Source of the DNA: a virus
DNA length: 33,936 nt
IMG/VR virus record: IMGVR_UViG_3300047551_001838
Span: 1-33,936 of that record
Reading direction: 5' to 3' (one strand)
Part shown: positions 1-32,516 of the stretch, piece by piece
Position numbering within the stretch: position 1 is the stretch's first letter
Layout: every line of letters begins with the position of its first letter
Position numbers and translations under genes: made by a program
The notes under the pieces: generated by a model
Database searches by the model: none
Told to the model about the DNA's origin: nothing
What the model saw: the letters and a program-made list of their open reading frames with translations, nothing else

Positions 1-29
1 TTTCTGGAGTTGGCGCAGGAGGGGAGCCA

Positions 30-1658
30 ATGAGCAAGCCGCCGAGCAGGGCAAAGACGATCGAGCAGCATCAGCGTGACGGCACGTTCCGTTGGGACCG
101 CCACGAGCATCTGCTCGAGGAGCGCGACGCAACGCCGAAGCTGTGGCAGGCAAAGAGCATCAGGCAGGGAGGGCCGCTCGAGCCGGCCGAGCACTTCTCG
201 CTGTTCACCGAGCAGCTGATCCGCCACACGATCGGCCGCTGGTACGGGCAGCCCTTCAAGCTCGAGCCCTGGCAGCGCGAGATGGTCGACGAGCTGCTCG
301 CCGTCGACAAGCACGGCAACCGTGTCATCCGCCAGGCGCTCATCGGGCTGCCTCGTAAGAACGGCAAGAGCTCGCTGCTCTCGTCGCTGGCTTTGTGGTC
401 AGCTGCGGCCGAAGGCGAGCACGCGCCGGATGTCGTAGTGGCAGCGGGCTCGCGCGAGCAGGCTGCCGTCGTCTTCGACCAGGCCCGCTCGTTTGCCGAG
501 AGCAACCCTGACCTGGCGCTGTGGTTCGACCAGCAGCGCTTCGTCATCAAGTGCCCGCAGACCGATGGCCTCATCCGCCGAGTAGCAAGCGACGGGAAGC
601 TGCAGCACGGCCTCAACCCGTCGACGATCGTCGCCGACGAGCTGCACTCGTGGATGACTCCGAGGCAGGAAGAGCTATGGGCGGCGATGCAGACCTCGAC
701 AGGGGCCCGCGAGCAGCCGCTCACCTGCTCGATCACGACCGCCGGCTATGACCGCGACACCGTTTTGGGCCGCCTCTACAAGCAGGCGATGGAGCTGCCG
801 AGCCTCGAGGAGAGAAACGACGGCTCGCTCCTCGTTGCCAAGGACACCGACAGCGGCTTCCTGTTCTGGTGGTACACCGCGCCCGAGGACGTCGACATCG
901 AGGACGAGGACGCCTGGATGCGCGCGAACCCGGCCAGCTGGGTGACGCCCGAGACCCTGCGCCAGCAGCTCGACTCGCCAACGGTCGACGAGCAGGCCTT
1001 CCGGCGCCTTCACCTCAACCAGTGGACCGCCACGCGCACCTCATGGCTCAAGCCCGGGCTGTGGGATGAGATGCAGGACGGCGAGCTGCGCCCGGTGCCC
1101 GGCACGCCGGTCTACCTGGGCATCGACGTCGGCCTGGTGCACGACACCACCGCCGTCTCGATGGCATGGCTTGTCGAGGACAAGGTCGCCATCAACACGC
1201 ACGTCTGGAGCGCCGTTCACGACGTACCGGCGCACGAGTACGCCGAAGGTGGCCGTGTGGACCTCGAGCAGGTCGAGGAGTACGTCCGCCGGCTCGCCAA
1301 GACCTACGACGTGCGCGAGCTCGTCTTCGACCCGCGCTTCTTCGAGCGCTCGGCACAGACACTCTCAGGGGAAGGGCTCACCGTGGCACCACTGCATCAG
1401 TCCTCGGCCGCGATGGCCGATGCCTACCAGCAGTTCTACGCATCAGCTCAGGAGCGCCGCCTGCTGCACGACGGCGACCCGGTCCTCGCCGCTCATGTCG
1501 AAGCGACAGCGGCCAAGATGACCGACAGGGGCTGGCGAGTGCAGAAGAAGGACCAGAGCAAGCGCATCGACGCCTGCGTGGCCTCTGTCATGGCTACCTG
1601 GAGGGCATGGCGCTCGCTCTCTGAGCACCAAGAGCAGGGATTCGTGCTGATCGGATGA
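30..1658 (+). CDS. terL: Terminase large subunit (packaging ATPase/nuclease)
   Basis: 542 aa, full length for a siphovirus TerL. It should power DNA translocation into the prohead and cut concatemers. The N-terminal ATPase has a Walker A-like GLPRKNGKS (106-114) and a Walker B VADELH (201-206). The C-terminal RNase H-like nuclease begins at YLGIDVG (D366), with a second acidic strand around LVFDPRFF and a late Asp in RIDAC. AGGAGG at 17-22 fixes the ATG at 30. No small terminase is visible beside it; the nearest packaging-type gene is the HNH nuclease at the other end of the window. The family assignment is firm. Confidence 0.95.
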   Translation: MSKPPSRAKTIEQHQRDGTFRWDRHEHLLEERDATPKLWQAKSIRQGGPLEPAEHFSLFTEQLIRHTIGRWYGQPFKLEPWQREMVDELLAVDKHGNRVIRQALIGLPRKNGKSSLLSSLALWSAAAEGEHAPDVVVAAGSREQAAVVFDQARSFAESNPDLALWFDQQRFVIKCPQTDGLIRRVASDGKLQHGLNPSTIVADELHSWMTPRQEELWAAMQTSTGAREQPLTCSITTAGYDRDTVLGRLYKQAMELPSLEERNDGSLLVAKDTDSGFLFWWYTAPEDVDIEDEDAWMRANPASWVTPETLRQQLDSPTVDEQAFRRLHLNQWTATRTSWLKPGLWDEMQDGELRPVPGTPVYLGIDVGLVHDTTAVSMAWLVEDKVAINTHVWSAVHDVPAHEYAEGGRVDLEQVEEYVRRLAKTYDVRELVFDPRFFERSAQTLSGEGLTVAPLHQSSAAMADAYQQFYASAQERRLLHDGDPVLAAHVEATAAKMTDRGWRVQKKDQSKRIDACVASVMATWRAWRSLSEHQEQGFVLIG

Positions 1659-10582: not shown

Positions 10583-10876
10583 ATGAAGATCAAGTGCCCA
10601 GCAGGCACCTTTGAGGTGCCCGAGGAGTTCACGCTGCGCGAGATGAAGACGATCAAGAACGTCTCGGGCCTACTGCCCGGACAGATCGAAGAGGCGCTCG
10701 AGCAGGGAGACACCGGCGTGGTCACCGCGCTGGTTGTCGTCGCCGCTCAGCGCACCGGCAAGAAGCTCACAGAAGACATGGTCCTGGACTGGACGCTGTC
10801 CGACATCGAGTTTCTTGCCGACGAAGAGGACGACAAGCCGGCCAAGAAGAAGAAGGCCGAGCCGGACCCTTCGTAG
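10583..10876 (+). CDS. Tail assembly chaperone, short form (G-like)
   Basis: 97 aa, with AAGGAGCAGG at 10571-10580 before the ATG. A small beta N-terminus (IKCPAGTFEVPEEFTLREMK), a helical body and an acidic then Lys-rich end (FLADEEDDKPAKKKK). Position just before the tape measure and the downstream -1 open frame identify it as the G partner of a G/GT chaperone pair that coats the tape measure during tail assembly. Confidence 0.85.
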   Translation: MKIKCPAGTFEVPEEFTLREMKTIKNVSGLLPGQIEEALEQGDTGVVTALVVVAAQRTGKKLTEDMVLDWTLSDIEFLADEEDDKPAKKKKAEPDPS

Positions 10877-13673: not shown

Positions 13674-14533
13674 TCTCCTCTATCACGCTCTCCACCGCAT
13701 CCGGCAACGTCACGCTGCACTCGACGGCCTCTGGGAGCAACGCCGTGGTTACCAGGGCTGAGGGGCTGCAGGGCGTCGCTCCGGTGCGCAACCTCATCAC
13801 GCAGCGCTCGCAGGCCTCCGGTGGCTTCGTGCGCTCACGCTTTACCGACAGCCGCACCATCACGCTCGAGGGAGAGGTCCTCGGCTCGTCAATCGAGGGA
13901 GCCTTCGACAACTTCGACACGATTGCCTCGGCGATCTACGACTCGATCGGCACCGAGCGCACGCTCAAGTGGACCCGCGATGCCTCCGGCCAGCAGCTGC
14001 AGGCGGGCGTCAGGCTGCAGGACTTCCAGCCGCTGACGCTCACCGATGGCGCTGCGTGGGTGAAGTACCAGGTGTCCTTCGTGGCGCCCGACCCGCGCGT
14101 CTACTCGCAGACCGAGACGACCGCTACAGGCAACGCCTTGGCTGCTCCGGCAGGCGGCAAGACCTACGACTACACCTACACACGCGGTTACAACCCGAGC
14201 TCGGGCGGTGACGTGGCCTACAACAACACCGGCTCGGTGCCCACGCCGCCTATCATCCGCATCTTCGGCTACTGCACGAGCCCGCAGGTCATCCTCACCG
14301 ACGAGATCAGGCTCATCTTTAGCGGCGAGGTAGGACCAGGGGATTACCTAGAGATCGACGCCGCTGCCCGCACCGTGAAGCTCAACGGCACCACCAGCCG
14401 CCTCAACCTGCTGGACCCGGTCAACTCCACCTTCTTCGCTCTTCCTGTCGGCTCCGGCAGCGTCCAGCTGGTCGCCAGCAACTTCGACGCCAACGCCCAC
14501 GCTGACCTCATCTACCGACCCGCCTTCACCTAA
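13670..14533 (+). CDS. Distal tail protein (Dit-like)
   Basis: 287 aa, ATG overlapping the tape measure stop (ATGA). Beta-rich protein with FTDSRTITLEGEVLGSS, FDTIASAIYDSIG, LKYQ-like segments in WVKYQVSFVAPDPRVYSQTE and a C-terminal galectin-like jelly-roll pattern (IRIFGYCTSPQVIL, LEIDAAARTVKLNG). This matches Dit proteins, which form the hub ring joining tube and baseplate. Position right after the tape measure is typical. Confidence 0.82.
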   Translation: MISSITLSTASGNVTLHSTASGSNAVVTRAEGLQGVAPVRNLITQRSQASGGFVRSRFTDSRTITLEGEVLGSSIEGAFDNFDTIASAIYDSIGTERTLKWTRDASGQQLQAGVRLQDFQPLTLTDGAAWVKYQVSFVAPDPRVYSQTETTATGNALAAPAGGKTYDYTYTRGYNPSSGGDVAYNNTGSVPTPPIIRIFGYCTSPQVILTDEIRLIFSGEVGPGDYLEIDAAARTVKLNGTTSRLNLLDPVNSTFFALPVGSGSVQLVASNFDANAHADLIYRPAFT

Positions 14534-21063: not shown

Positions 21064-21152
21064 CACTTCGGCTTCGGCCGTCCATACGTCGACCGCCGAG
21101 TTCCCCTGCTCCTCGCGCGTCGGCTCAGAGCGCGACCTCTCTGCGCGCTCCG

Positions 21153-21198
21153 AAAGCCCCTCTGGCCGCTTCCTTCCGAGCGGCTGGGGGGGCTTTTG
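21153..21198 (+). terminator. Rho-independent terminator after the RusA-like gene
   Basis: Long hairpin: AAAGCCCC (21153-21160) with GGGGCTTT (21189-21196) and GCCGCT (21165-21170) with AGCGGC (21179-21184), joined by wobble pairs, 8-nt loop, ending in CTTTTGTCGTT. It should end the late/lysis transcript. On the other strand the shorter U-run could also stop the repressor transcript. Confidence 0.75.
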
Positions 21199-21240
21199 TC
21201 GTTGTCCCAGCGTTGTCCGCTTGTGCGCTTCCCTAACGGT

Positions 21241-21268
21241 TTGGCGTATTGCGCGGGCAGCGTATTTT
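21241..21268 (+). promoter_or_regulatory. Rightward sigma70-type promoter upstream of the G-tract ORF
   Basis: TTGGCG (21241-21246) and TATTTT (21263-21268) are 16 nt apart. GCGTATT is repeated at 21244-21250 and 21261-21267, and CGTCAA at 21269 and 21292, possible regulator sites. The transcript would start about 35 nt before the ATG at 21312 and run antisense to the repressor gene's 3' end. Confidence 0.45.
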
Positions 21269-21311
21269 CGTCAAGGTTGCCGCTAACGCCACGTCAACTA
21301 GGGAGGTTGAG

Positions 21312-21341
21312 ATGAGCAGAAACCGAGGGGGGGGGGCTTGA
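21312..21341 (+). CDS. Nine-codon ORF ending in a G10 tract
   Basis: ATG at 21312 has a good ribosome site (AGGGAGG, 21300-21306) but stops at TGA 21339-21341 straight after ten Gs (21327-21336). One extra G would fuse this start in frame to the 65-aa ORF that begins at TTG 21338. It may be a leader peptide, a phase-variable start, or the visible half of a gene broken by a homopolymer sequencing error. Confidence 0.4.
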   Translation: MSRNRGGGA

Positions 21342-21535
21342 AGCCTTCTTCCCTAGACGTTCTGGCTGAGCTGCACGATCAGCTCAGCACACATCTGCCG
21401 TTAGTACCGGCAGACGACCCGCTGCGCGACAGACTCGTGCAGCTCGAGCAGATACTCAGCGCTTGCCGTCCCGGGCATCAAGGTCCCGGGCGATTCCCTG
21501 CAAGAGCTCCATCGCCTCATCAACCCGTGACCTGA
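21338..21535 (+). CDS. Small ORF convergent with the repressor
   Basis: 65 aa from TTG 21338 as sequenced. Residues 3-43 read like a real amphipathic protein (LDVLAELHDQLSTHL, DPLRDRLVQLEQILSA). The last 25 overlap the antisense end of the repressor gene and are low complexity. Its true start may be ATG 21312 if the G tract has eleven Gs. A switch-related or antisense role is a guess. No family recognised. Confidence 0.45.
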   Translation: MKPSSLDVLAELHDQLSTHLPLVPADDPLRDRLVQLEQILSACRPGHQGPGRFPARAPSPHQPVT

Positions 21536-21782
21536 TCTCGTCAAGGCTGGCCGGTGGGGGCTCCTGTTGGCCCTCGCCGGTCTTCAGGTACTCGTAGCTG
21601 ACGCCGCAGTAGTCGGCGAGCTTGACCATTGTCGGATACCTGGGCTCTGACTCGTCGTTGATGGTGCGCCGCATCGTGTAGAAGTCCACGCCGGCTTCCC
21701 GGGCCCAAGCTGACTCGCTCTTGCCGTAGTGCTTCTCGTTGAGAAGCCTGAGCAGCCGCTGTCCTAGGGTCTCTTCGGGCAT
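21456..21782 (-). CDS. XRE-family HTH repressor, probable immunity repressor
   Basis: 108 aa, the only minus-strand gene. An HTH spans about residues 22-67 (SAWAREAGVDFYTMRRTIND, YPTMVKLADYCGVSYEYLK). The C-terminus is a short helix (SLDEIRSRVDEAMELLQGIA) fit for dimerisation; there is no peptidase domain, so RecA-style self-cleavage is unlikely. No Shine-Dalgarno precedes the ATG; a -10-like TACGCT ends 6 nt before it, suggesting a leaderless mRNA as with lambda cI. Divergent from the early operon, so it probably represses it. Confidence 0.85.
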   Translation of the reverse strand: MPEETLGQRLLRLLNEKHYGKSESAWAREAGVDFYTMRRTINDESEPRYPTMVKLADYCGVSYEYLKTGEGQQEPPPASLDEIRSRVDEAMELLQGIARDLDARDGKR

Positions 21783-28768: not shown

Positions 28769-29076
28769 AGCGCCGCTCGTGGAAAGAGGCCAGGCAGAAG
28801 GTTGAGCGCGAGGGCTTCAGGTGCCGCGTGTGCCGCTCGAGCTTTCAGGTAGAGGCTGCGCACGTCATCCCTCGCAGCCTTGCGCCTGGAGTCGGCAACA
28901 ACATGGGCGCCGACAACGTCGTGCCGCTGTGCGGTGACGTTTGCCATCCCGCCTATGACCGGCACGAGCTGGACCTGCTGCCCTACTTGACGCTGCCCGA
29001 GCAGCTGGCGGCCGTTCAGCAGGCCGGCTCAATCGCTCTGGCTTACCGGCGCACGACTAACACACGGGATTTCTGA
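28765..29076 (+). CDS. HNH endonuclease
   Basis: 103 aa from a GTG overlapping the upstream stop. Zinc pair CRVC (20-23) and PLCGDVCHP (C56, C60), with HNH core AAHVIPRS (H33), N51 in GADNVVPL and the C-terminal H in YDRHELD. Cuts DNA; could be a homing-type or defence nuclease. Directly overlaps the methyltransferase start, so a restriction-modification-like pair is conceivable but unproven. Confidence 0.82.
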   Translation: MKRRSWKEARQKVEREGFRCRVCRSSFQVEAAHVIPRSLAPGVGNNMGADNVVPLCGDVCHPAYDRHELDLLPYLTLPEQLAAVQQAGSIALAYRRTTNTRDF

Positions 29077-30431
29077 TGTGGCGGCTGATTGAGGCGGATT
29101 GCGTTGAAGCGATGCGCGAGCTGCCGGAGGCGAGCATTGACGCCATCGTCACCGACCCGCCATACGGCCTCGGGTTTATGGGTAAGGAGTGGGATGACCT
29201 GCCGCCCGGCCTTGAGTGGGCGCAGGAGTGCATCCGCGTCCTGAAGCCTGGCGGTCACCTTCTGGCGTTTGGTGGGAGCCGGACGTATCACCGTCTTGCG
29301 TGCGCGGTTGAGGATGCGGGGTTTGAGGTTCGGGATCAGATGATGTGGCTTTATGGGTCGGGGTTTCCGAAAAGTCTCAATGTGGGGAAGGCGATTGACA
29401 AGGCAGCGGGAGCCGAGCGGGAGGTTGTCGGAGAGCCGGCACAGCGCGGAAGTCCGAACGGTGTCGCGCCGTTCAACACCGCCGACGCTCCGGTTGAGCT
29501 AATCACCGCCCCCGCTACTCCCGAAGCCGAGAAGTGGGAGGGGTGGGGTACGGCGTTAAAGCCTGCTCACGAGCCGATCGTCGTTGCTCGTAAGCCGCTG
29601 TCAGGGACGGTTGCGGCGAACGTGTTGGAGTTTGGGACGGGCGCGTTGAACATCAACGGGTGCCGGATAGAGGGGCAGCCCCCGTCGGTTCCGCAGCCCT
29701 TGATGCGGCCGGGCGTTGATAGCGGCCACGCGCTTGGTGCTGGAACAGGTCGCAACGGTGAGATGAGTGAAGCCTCCGGCCGTTGGCCTGCGAACGTGAT
29801 TCTCAATGAGGAAGCGGGGCGGCTCCTAGACGAGCAGAGCGGAGAAAGCAAGGACGGAACGGCGGTTTACCGAAACCATCCTGACGAGGGCCGTTTTCAT
29901 GATGCATCAAGTTATGCGTTCCGTATGCGACGGGGGCCAGATAAGGGCTACGGCGGTTCGGGCGGCGCTTCTCGTTTCTTCTATTGCCCGAAGGCTTCTA
30001 AGGGTGAGCGCAACGCCGGGCTAGACGGGTTTGACCTAAAGGTTGTCAACGAAGCAACACCGCCAGGAACCAAAGGCGCTCAGTCACCGAGGGCTGGAGC
30101 CGGACGCAACGGAGCAGTTCCAAACCATCACCCGACCGTAAAGCCGATAGAGCTCATGCGCTACTTATGCCGCCTTGTCACTCCGCCAGGCGGCATTGTC
30201 CTTGACCCGTTTACCGGAAGCGGCACTACGGGCTGCGCTGCGGTCCTAGAGGGCTTTGAGTTTGTCGGCGTTGAGCGCGAGGCCGAATATGCGGAGATTG
30301 CCAAAGCGCGCATTGCCTGGTGGGAGAAGCATCAGGCGCAGGGCGACACCGACGACATCATGCGCGCCGCAGACGAGCGTGAAGCTGTTGAGGAAGCCGG
30401 GCAGCTCGGGCTACTGGACGAGGCCGCATGA
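29076..30431 (+). CDS. DNA methyltransferase (N6-adenine/N4-cytosine, beta class)
   Basis: 451 aa. DPPY (27-30) precedes the SAM motif DPFTGSGTTG (about 378-385), the beta-class order. GGHLLAFGGSRTYHRL and HHPTVKPIELMRYLCRL are typical of N6-A/N4-C enzymes; the middle 150 residues should be the target-recognition region. It may protect phage DNA from host restriction. Codon choice (many GGG, GTT, TTT) differs from the flanking genes, a sign of recent acquisition. No restriction partner except the adjoining HNH gene. Confidence 0.88.
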   Translation: MWRLIEADCVEAMRELPEASIDAIVTDPPYGLGFMGKEWDDLPPGLEWAQECIRVLKPGGHLLAFGGSRTYHRLACAVEDAGFEVRDQMMWLYGSGFPKSLNVGKAIDKAAGAEREVVGEPAQRGSPNGVAPFNTADAPVELITAPATPEAEKWEGWGTALKPAHEPIVVARKPLSGTVAANVLEFGTGALNINGCRIEGQPPSVPQPLMRPGVDSGHALGAGTGRNGEMSEASGRWPANVILNEEAGRLLDEQSGESKDGTAVYRNHPDEGRFHDASSYAFRMRRGPDKGYGGSGGASRFFYCPKASKGERNAGLDGFDLKVVNEATPPGTKGAQSPRAGAGRNGAVPNHHPTVKPIELMRYLCRLVTPPGGIVLDPFTGSGTTGCAAVLEGFEFVGVEREAEYAEIAKARIAWWEKHQAQGDTDDIMRAADEREAVEEAGQLGLLDEAA

Positions 30432-30915: not shown

Positions 30916-31091
30916 GCGCGCACGACCGACTCAAGAAGCTGGGCATCGTGCCGACCATTGACGCTGAGCGGGCCTATCGCCTCGGCCAGCAGGATGCGCG
31001 CGAGGAGATCGCCAGGCTGCAAGACGAGCTGGACGTGCTGCGGGCCCGCATGATCGAGATAGGGCTGCTGGCCTCAAGGCGCAGCCGGTGA
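30912..31091 (+). CDS. Small coiled-coil protein
   Basis: 59 aa from ATG 30912. SAHDRLKKLGIVPTIDAERA then a coiled coil (GQQDAREEIARLQDELDVLR). Overlaps neighbours by 4 nt each side. Function unknown. Confidence 0.55.
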   Translation: MSAHDRLKKLGIVPTIDAERAYRLGQQDAREEIARLQDELDVLRARMIEIGLLASRRSR

Positions 31092-31534
31092 GTCTCCGTC
31101 TCGTGCCAGTCAGCTTTCAAGAGGCGACAGAGTTCACACGCGCTTGGCACAGGCATCACTTGCCGCCTCGCGGCCACAAGTTCAGTATCGGCGTTGCCGA
31201 TGGTGACGTCCTAGTAGGCGTAGCAATGGTCGGTAGGCCCGTTGCCCGTCACTACGACGATGGACTGACGCTTGAGGTAAACCGCACCGCCACAGATGGG
31301 AGTCGCAACGCCAACTCCATGCTCTATGGGGCCGCCTGGAGGGCGACTAAGGCGCTCGGCTATGGGCGACTCATTACCTACACGCAGGAGGGCGAGAGCG
31401 GCTCATCGTTGCGCGCAGCTGGCTGGAAGGTGGTTGGGGAGCGCAAGGCGCGCTCTGGCTGGAACGTCCCGTCGCGCCCAAGGCTTGATCGTGGCACTGA
31501 TGGCGTCCAGCGAACTCTCTGGGAGGCAGCGTGA
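31088..31534 (+). CDS. XF1762-family GNAT-like protein
   Basis: 148 aa from a GTG. Strong match to the XF1762-type phage/mobile-element family: SLRLVPVSFQEATEFTRAWH, the HRHHLPPRGHKFSIGV block, VGVAMVGRPVARHYDDGLTL, NSMLYGAAWRATKALGYGRL and ESGSSLRAAGWK. The fold is GNAT-like, but the substrate is unknown. Codon use is mixed compared with the genes around it. Confidence 0.8.
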   Translation: MSLRLVPVSFQEATEFTRAWHRHHLPPRGHKFSIGVADGDVLVGVAMVGRPVARHYDDGLTLEVNRTATDGSRNANSMLYGAAWRATKALGYGRLITYTQEGESGSSLRAAGWKVVGERKARSGWNVPSRPRLDRGTDGVQRTLWEAA

Positions 31535-31833
31535 GCAACTACATCAAGCAGGACCGCAAGCGCCTGCGGCAAGCCATCCTCGCGCAGCTCGGCCGCCAGC
31601 AGATGACCTTCGAGGAGCTCGCCGACGAGCTGGATCACATCTCCGCGCGCAACATCATCCGCCGCGAGCTGCTGCGCATGGTCGGCCAGGACCTCATCTG
31701 CTCGATAGAGACCAAGGGCAAGTACGACGTCTTCGAGACGTGGGAGCGCGCCATTGAGCGCGTGAAGGCCAAGAACACAGGCCCGCGTCACTTCGTCAGG
31801 AGCCGCATACGCAGAGGAGAGCGCGTGGGCTGA
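31531..31833 (+). CDS. Winged-HTH-like small protein
   Basis: 100 aa from a GTG overlapping the upstream stop. QDRKRLRQAILAQLGRQQMT, FEELADELDHISARNIIRRE and DLICSIETKGKYDVFETW follow the helix-helix-wing order of a winged helix. The tail is basic (VRSRIRRGERVG). Last gene before the long noncoding region, so it could control or bind that region; this is a guess. Confidence 0.6.
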   Translation: MSNYIKQDRKRLRQAILAQLGRQQMTFEELADELDHISARNIIRRELLRMVGQDLICSIETKGKYDVFETWERAIERVKAKNTGPRHFVRSRIRRGERVG

Positions 31834-31890
31834 TCGACGATGTCGCCGGCCAGGCTGGCGCGGATCGCATACCTGGACCTCGAGGGAAGC

Positions 31891-32340
31891 TGACCTAGCC
31901 TGCGAACGGCGCAGGCAACATAGGCAAGCCAGCGCGGCCGGAACCCGTCCGGCCAAGAGCTTTATGCGAACCCGTGGAAGGCAGACGCCGCAAGGCGTGA
32001 GGCTGGCACGGTCGGAGAGCTGGTGGTCAGATCGAGTGCAGTAGACAACGGAGGTAGGGACACCTGTGCCTTCATTCATGTGGGGCACCGAGGGAGAGGG
32101 ACGGAGGCCTGCGGCTCCTCGGGCGCCCGGGCCCCTGCTGCTCTCGGCGCTGCCGGTAACTCCGTCCGGTCAGCCGGTTATCTTTCAACTGTCCACCTAG
32201 GAAAGGGCGTAGTGCGCCCTCAGCCATGTGGATTCATAGCGTCTCGAGGGACGCGCTTCATAGCCTCGGCGCTCCGTTTCCATGGGGGATAAGGCGGCGT
32301 CGAGCATGACTTCCGCGCCGGCCAGTGAGCCGGCGTTTCT
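31891..32340 (+). ncRNA. Candidate large structured noncoding RNA
   Basis: No credible protein lies between 31834 and 32369, yet strong hairpins are packed in: GCCTGCG/CGCAGGC (31898-31916) extended by CCTA/TAGG; GGCCGGA/TCCGGCC (31936-31954); CCGTG/CACGG (31972-32011) around a tandem G-A internal loop and an ACGCC-GCAA-GGCGT tetraloop hairpin; GTGCC/GGCAC (32066-32088); GGACGGAG/CTCCGTCC (32099-32167) enclosing more stems; AGGGCG/CGCCCT (32204-32220); and a terminator-like hairpin at 32316-32335. Comparable large phage RNAs include GOLLD and ROOL. I recognise no exact family. No clear promoter; it may be cut from the operon transcript. Confidence 0.5.
32316..32340 (+). terminator. Terminator-like hairpin at the end of the structured region
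   Basis: Perfect 7-bp stem CGCCGGC/GCCGGCG (32316-32322 and 32329-32335), 6-nt loop, followed by TTTCT. The U-run is short, so termination may be partial. It would define the 3' end of the candidate RNA, 30 nt before the next gene. Confidence 0.5.
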
Positions 32341-32369
32341 GTATCCGAAGGGCAGGGAGCGAGGAACAC

Positions 32370-32516
32370 ATGCGCATCCTGCACATCGACACCGAGAAGC
32401 GCCGCGTATGGGTCTGCGGCCTGCGCGTCCATCACGGCCTCGTCGGGCTGGGTGCCGCGATCGTCGGCGCTGCGCTGATGGTCCACGACCGCAAGGACTG
32501 GCCCTGGCATGTATGA
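32370..32516 (+). CDS. Small membrane protein
   Basis: 48 aa, ATG 32370 with a weak GAGGAA upstream. MRILHIDTEKRRVWVCGLRV then a membrane segment GLVGLGAAIVGAALMVH and a polar end. First gene after the structured region. Function unknown. Confidence 0.55.
   Translation: MRILHIDTEKRRVWVCGLRVHHGLVGLGAAIVGAALMVHDRKDWPWHV

Follow-up and report, generated by a model that had tools for sequence, protein, structure and literature searches.

The window analysed here is a single virus record of 33,936 nt with ~65% GC, and its source is a high-GC, temperate and uncultured phage. Between an ORF of 100 aa that ends at 31833 and an ORF of 48 aa that starts at 32370 lies a gap (31834-32369) that is, as originally predicted, the longest in the genome, but not by far, since the interval between the RusA gene and the repressor gene (21064-21455) spans 392 nt. 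The genes to which the text refers by position are:

21456-21782, minus strand: Cro/CI-like repressor with a weak HTH_3 match and a counterpart in the relative described below
29076-30431: DNA methyltransferase
31531-31833, plus strand: last gene before the RNA, encoding 100 aa with a weak HTH_20 match, 70% identical in the relative (L081)
32370-32516, plus strand: first gene after the terminator, encoding 48 aa with one hydrophobic segment

Rightward of the repressor gene are those for ssDNA-annealing (Sak4), SSB, integrase, DNA methyltransferase and Mom-like proteins and the 100-aa HTH ORF; the Mom-like DNA modification protein is encoded at 31088-31534, directly upstream of the HTH gene. 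Downstream of the gap are ORFs of 48, 83 and 219 aa and an HNH gene. The contig of the relative runs from the HNH gene straight into terL; genes for portal, protease, capsid and tail proteins are found downstream of terL. The gene order is lambda-like, with a divergent repressor, an early operon, the RNA, a terminator and the packaging and structural genes. The 100-aa HTH gene occupies the position of Q in lambda; its product has no family match as an antiterminator or Q, and its AlphaFold model is of low confidence (pLDDT 59).

Structure and conservation of the gap RNA

A scan with the flanking 219-aa protein found one relative, IMGVR_UViG_3300034073_002360 (L081/L096), which is a 36-kb IMG/VR contig whose TerL is 89% identical to that of the window phage. 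Its DNA aligns to the gap as two blocks, 31834-32020 (L081 to 3054) and 32155-32369 (L081 from 4269), with identities over non-coding columns of 71 and 68%, respectively, and the hairpins are kept despite indels of 1, 4 and 10 nt. Given these indels and stops in all frames, a conserved protein is excluded for the gap, which bears out the prediction that its open frames are not protein-like. The gap is very probably a real, conserved and structured non-coding RNA of ~0.5 kb on the plus strand, in which a 5' domain of P1-P6 (31844-32024) and a 3' domain of P8-P12 plus the terminator (32160-32341) flank a variable linker. Its features, all on the plus strand, are:

31844-31860: P1 hairpin, CGCCGGC/GCTGGCG, just 3' of the stop codon; counterpart at 2879-2896 in L081
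31879-31887: motif copy 1, CTCGAGGGA; CTTGAGGGA in L081
31894-31924: P2 hairpin, CCTA-GCCTGC...GCAGGC..TAGG, with conserved loop GAACGGC
31928-32024: P3 helix, GCCAGC (31928-31933) with GCTGGT (32019-32024), closing the P4-P6 domain
31936-31954: P4 hairpin, GGCCGGA/TCCGGCC; GAGCTGA/TCGGCTC in L081, with 3 compensatory pairs
31972-32011: P5, CCGTG/CACGG, with a purine-rich internal loop and the inner P6 GCAA hairpin (31985-31998)
32023-32155: variable linker, unalignable with L081
32099-32106 with 32160-32167: P8 long-range stem, GGACGGAG/CTCCGTCC, spanning the linker
32191-32233: P9, GTCCAC/GTGGAT, carrying P10, GGGCG-TAGTG-CGCCC (32205-32219); I12 in L081
32239-32254: P11 hairpin, GCGTC-TCGAGG-GACGC, with motif copy 2 in its loop
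32243-32251: motif copy 2, CTCGAGGGA; CTTGAGGGA in L081
32265-32304: P12 hairpin, CTCG...CGAG, with a variable interior
32316-32341: intrinsic terminator hairpin and T-rich tail, with compensatory changes in L081

The stems named in the original prediction, i.e., the P6 hairpin, the 8-bp P8 and the terminator hairpin (32316-32335), are all found at their predicted positions. P3 and P4 are the helices most clearly rebuilt with different letters: P3 is CGTGCGT/GCGCACG in L081, with several compensatory changes, and the L081 pairs in both helices include G-U. The P2 arms also differ in L081, with pairing mostly retained, while P5/P6 is almost invariant, except that the P6 stem is 2 bp shorter. 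The loops GAACGGC and GCAA and the segment GCGAACCCGTGGAAGGCAGA are unchanged. In scans of the plus strand for terminator-like sites, the hairpin at 32316-32335 is listed first in both phages; its T-tract, TTTCTGT, is short and interrupted. In the window, P1 is also predicted to pair strongly with the terminator (-46.7 kcal/mol, 0 of 300 shuffles), but this does not hold for L081 (38 of 300 shuffles), and the pairing is not relied on here.

The consensus fold was evaluated by RNAalifold on two-sequence alignments with 300 column shuffles that preserved conservation and gap patterns. On the plus strand, the consensus energies correspond to z values of -3.36 for the 5' domain, -3.88 for the 5' core and -3.55 for the 3' domain, compared with -0.65, -0.91 and -2.64, respectively, on the reverse strand and with -1.35 to +0.10 for four coding controls on both strands (eight tests). 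Based on these strand and control differences, the 5' domain is clearly structured and strand-specific, while the signal of the 3' domain is less strand-specific. RNAalifold finds 7 compensatory pairs in the 5' domain; the 3' domain has 4, a count that by itself does not exceed that of shuffles (reached by 90 of 300). Thus, the compensatory changes that the original prediction had proposed to look for in related phages are present in the one relative. As the RNA family has two members, the window phage and L081/L096, covariation cannot be tested formally.

For the single sequence, the whole-gap fold has a z of -3.64, and the best 180-nt window of the gap in a genome-wide scan has a z of -3.0 (start 31894, plus strand), while windows elsewhere fold harder (z of -6.3 at 21094 and -5.4 at 10654). 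Gap folding is therefore unexceptional for this genome, and the strong support for a structured RNA comes from the comparison with the relative, not from the folding of one sequence. The proposal of a large structured phage RNA is upheld by compensatory changes in one relative, a consensus fold stronger than those of shuffles and coding controls and the lack of a conserved protein. It is highly unlikely that the gap is a functionless GC-rich spacer whose fold around a simple terminator arose by chance. Although its single-sequence folding is only moderately unusual for the genome, 400 nt of non-coding sequence have kept 68-71% identity, and helices are rebuilt by compensatory changes that the coding controls lack, both of which argue against a lack of function.

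Two other regions were noted in the scan. The strongest fold is at 21064-21250, where tandem strong hairpins, including a ~20-bp terminator-like one (AAAGCCCCTCTGGCCGCT...AGCGGCTGGGGGGGCTTTT), are conserved in the relative (alifold z of -6.35); lying before the repressor gene, this is probably the terminator region of the late operon. The 180-nt window at 10654-10834 (z of -5.4 on the plus and -3.7 on the minus strand) is near the tail assembly chaperone gene, and its fold could be a frameshift signal or chance.

In L081 the linker is replaced by a ~1.1-kb cassette (L081:3120-4270) with four small ORFs, the last of which encodes an HTH protein, and a promoter-like TTGACA-18-TACACT; none of the ORFs matches a homing endonuclease or reverse transcriptase. 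At the left edge of the cassette is a perfect 12-bp inverted repeat, TGAACAGCAGCA/TGCTGCTGTTCA. P8 is kept in L081 as GGACGG/CCGTCC, without covariation and with its arms 1.15 kb apart. A 16-mer of the window linker (32137-32152) recurs in the terL region of the relative (L096), and 15 of its 16 positions recur in two other terL contigs, which is probably chance in GC-rich DNA.

The motif CTCGAGGGA had been predicted near both ends of the gap and is present there; a third CGAGGGA is found at 32089. The 9-mer CTCGAGGGA has two further copies outside the gap, at 13865 and 22974. L096, over its 16.5 kb, lacks CTCGAGGGA and has CTTGAGGGA only at the two equivalent places. The palindromic CUCGAG is thus changed to CUUGAG in both distant copies, by which 6 pairs from copy to copy are kept, while the self-pairing of CUUGAG, with G-U, is weak (-2.4 vs. 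-7.3 kcal/mol for CUCGAG). As one concerted change, this is no more than a hint that the motif mediates contact of the domains or of RNA copies, or that a protein site is present twice.

DNA, protein, pattern and covariance-model searches yielded no further relatives. In IMG/VR, the pattern GCGAACCCGTGGAAGGC matched the relative and sequences without any other similarity, which look coding with a common ANPWKA-like peptide, and two other DNA patterns matched the relative only. Blastn against phages and plasmids gave nothing real; the 100-aa HTH and 219-aa proteins identified the same contig only in IMG/VR and nothing in phage records; and none of the 80 loci from a search with the Mom-like protein carries the RNA, nor was anything found in three genome contigs whose TerL is distant. 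A search of 0.9 Mb with covariance models R1 and R2 gave a match in L076 (E of 0.00045) that was judged spurious: it lies within an ORF, and most of the model is missing from it. TerL relatives mostly lack the RNA region, because their contigs begin at terL. Most contigs of the TerL group (window 1-30; L088-L090, L092, L094, L095, L097, L099, L100, L102) start at most ~110 nt from terL, and the starts adjoin a run of 7-10 T; they may mark either the end of the genome or a point at which the assembly broke at the T run. The TerL proteins of the L088-L102 group are only ~33% identical to those of the nearest phage records (Streptomyces phages, phiC31 type), and the group is therefore apparently without a cultured member in that phage collection.

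Comparison with known RNAs

No Rfam family matches at gathering score in the window or the relative, and no credible match is found in either phage at E up to 5; matches to asX3, mir-1538 and Ysr49 were rejected as weak and biologically senseless. The gap RNA is thus not a detectable GOLLD, ROOL, OLE, HEARO or intron, in agreement with the original prediction, which had assigned it to no known family. ARAGORN finds no tRNA or tmRNA in the window or L081.

In lambda, the late switch consists of Q, the 6S leader RNA and tR', where the leader of ~0.2 kb acts through Q. The window resembles lambda in the order of a regulator gene, a terminator-ended leader, late genes, genome end and terminase, but differs in that its RNA is itself large, with a conserved structure, and in that the upstream protein is without a match to a Q family. 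The pRNA of phi29, a phage of another type, is ~174 nt and, like the gap RNA, is a structured phage RNA fairly near packaging genes; the two were compared by Rfam scan only. The put RNAs are ~70 nt with two stem-loops and are located at early promoters (PMC9378689). The gap RNA may be likened to put of HK022 as a cis-acting structured phage RNA with a proposed action on RNA polymerase and terminators, but differs in size and architecture, being ~500 nt with approximately a dozen helices at the early/late boundary. With ROOL and GOLLD it shares the features of a large phage RNA, conserved domains around a variable linker and a self-complementary loop motif. GOLLD linkers sometimes hold tRNAs, while the ROOL linker is disordered (PMC12286853); in contrast, the gap RNA has no Rfam match and no tRNA island, and a kissing-loop oligomer is hinted at only by the palindromic motif.

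A putative late-operon leader and its alternatives

We tentatively propose that the gap RNA is a conserved leader of the late operon with a conditional terminator. Its RNA structure is conserved in the relative, and a predicted intrinsic terminator is found close upstream of the first late ORF. The end of its stem, at 32335-32336, is separated by ~34 nt from the ATG of the 48-aa ORF (32370), an interval that is too small for a promoter. Late transcription from any upstream promoter would therefore have to pass the terminator. The hairpin pair at 21064-21250 also fits the end of a late operon. In the proposed mechanism, which we infer from sequence and which is less well supported than the conserved fold, transcription would enter the RNA from the early operon or from an unrecognised promoter and would halt at the intrinsic terminator by default. 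The folded RNA, acting by itself in the manner of put or together with a phage protein (the neighbouring HTH protein, for example), may then let RNA polymerase read through to the late genes, i.e., those for the 48-, 83- and 219-aa products, HNH, terL, portal, capsid and tail. Against the leader, no sigma-70-like promoter is found in the region, although the promoters of the host may be of another kind; the 1.1-kb cassette inside the L081 RNA would be unusual in a single compact leader; the T-tract is imperfect; and the HTH protein matches no antiterminator family.

The main rival is a free-standing large ornate RNA similar to ROOL or GOLLD, which would be released by the terminator and whose self-complementary loops would join copies. 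Two conserved domains that flank a variable and, in L081, gene-bearing linker, a terminator that closes the RNA and the CUCGAG to CUUGAG change with its 6 pairs kept are all consistent with such an RNA. We consider it rather unlikely, as there is neither an Rfam match nor a nearby tRNA, the concerted change comes down to two substitutions that coincide once and leave CUUGAG pairing weak, and the spacing between the terminator and the ORF suggests a role in cis.

The gap may instead hold two separate elements, with the 5' domain as the 3' UTR of the early operon and the 3' domain as the leader/terminator of the late one; the cassette between them would have been lost by the window phage. This would explain why the linker cannot be aligned and why L081 has 1.1 kb of genes and a promoter-like site in its place, and also why P8, which joins the halves, lacks covariation. 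That GGACGG/CCGTCC is kept on either side of the linker in both phages and that the CTYGAGGGA motif changes in concert across both domains make this division unlikely.

A packaging element, in the form of an RNA like pRNA or of a recognition site close to the genome ends, is very improbable: the RNA is upstream of terL and ~1.6 kb from the window end, but four genes separate it from terL, and the structure signal of the 5' domain depends on the strand, as expected of an RNA but not of a DNA site. A self-splicing intron or its remnant is scarcely credible, despite the GNRA hairpin, the long-range stems and the ORFs within a loop in L081, given that complete genes flank the RNA without a split reading frame, no group I or II match is found at E up to 5 and the cassette matches no endonuclease or reverse transcriptase.

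Returning to the late-operon leader, the kept fold and a terminator just before the late genes indicate that the gap RNA probably represents an RNA not described before, with a part in timing late-gene expression. Few large structured RNAs are known from phages, and for most of them the function is not known; this one is without a described family, and the relative shows that such an RNA can hold a gene cassette within its linker. It is conceivable, though doubtful, that it represents a new class of large phage RNA, in which the linker can carry whole genes, a self-complementary motif joins domains or copies and the RNA's own terminator sets late transcription. If it acts alone on RNA polymerase, it would be far larger than the put RNAs, and its place at the early-to-late switch is one where function is directly testable.
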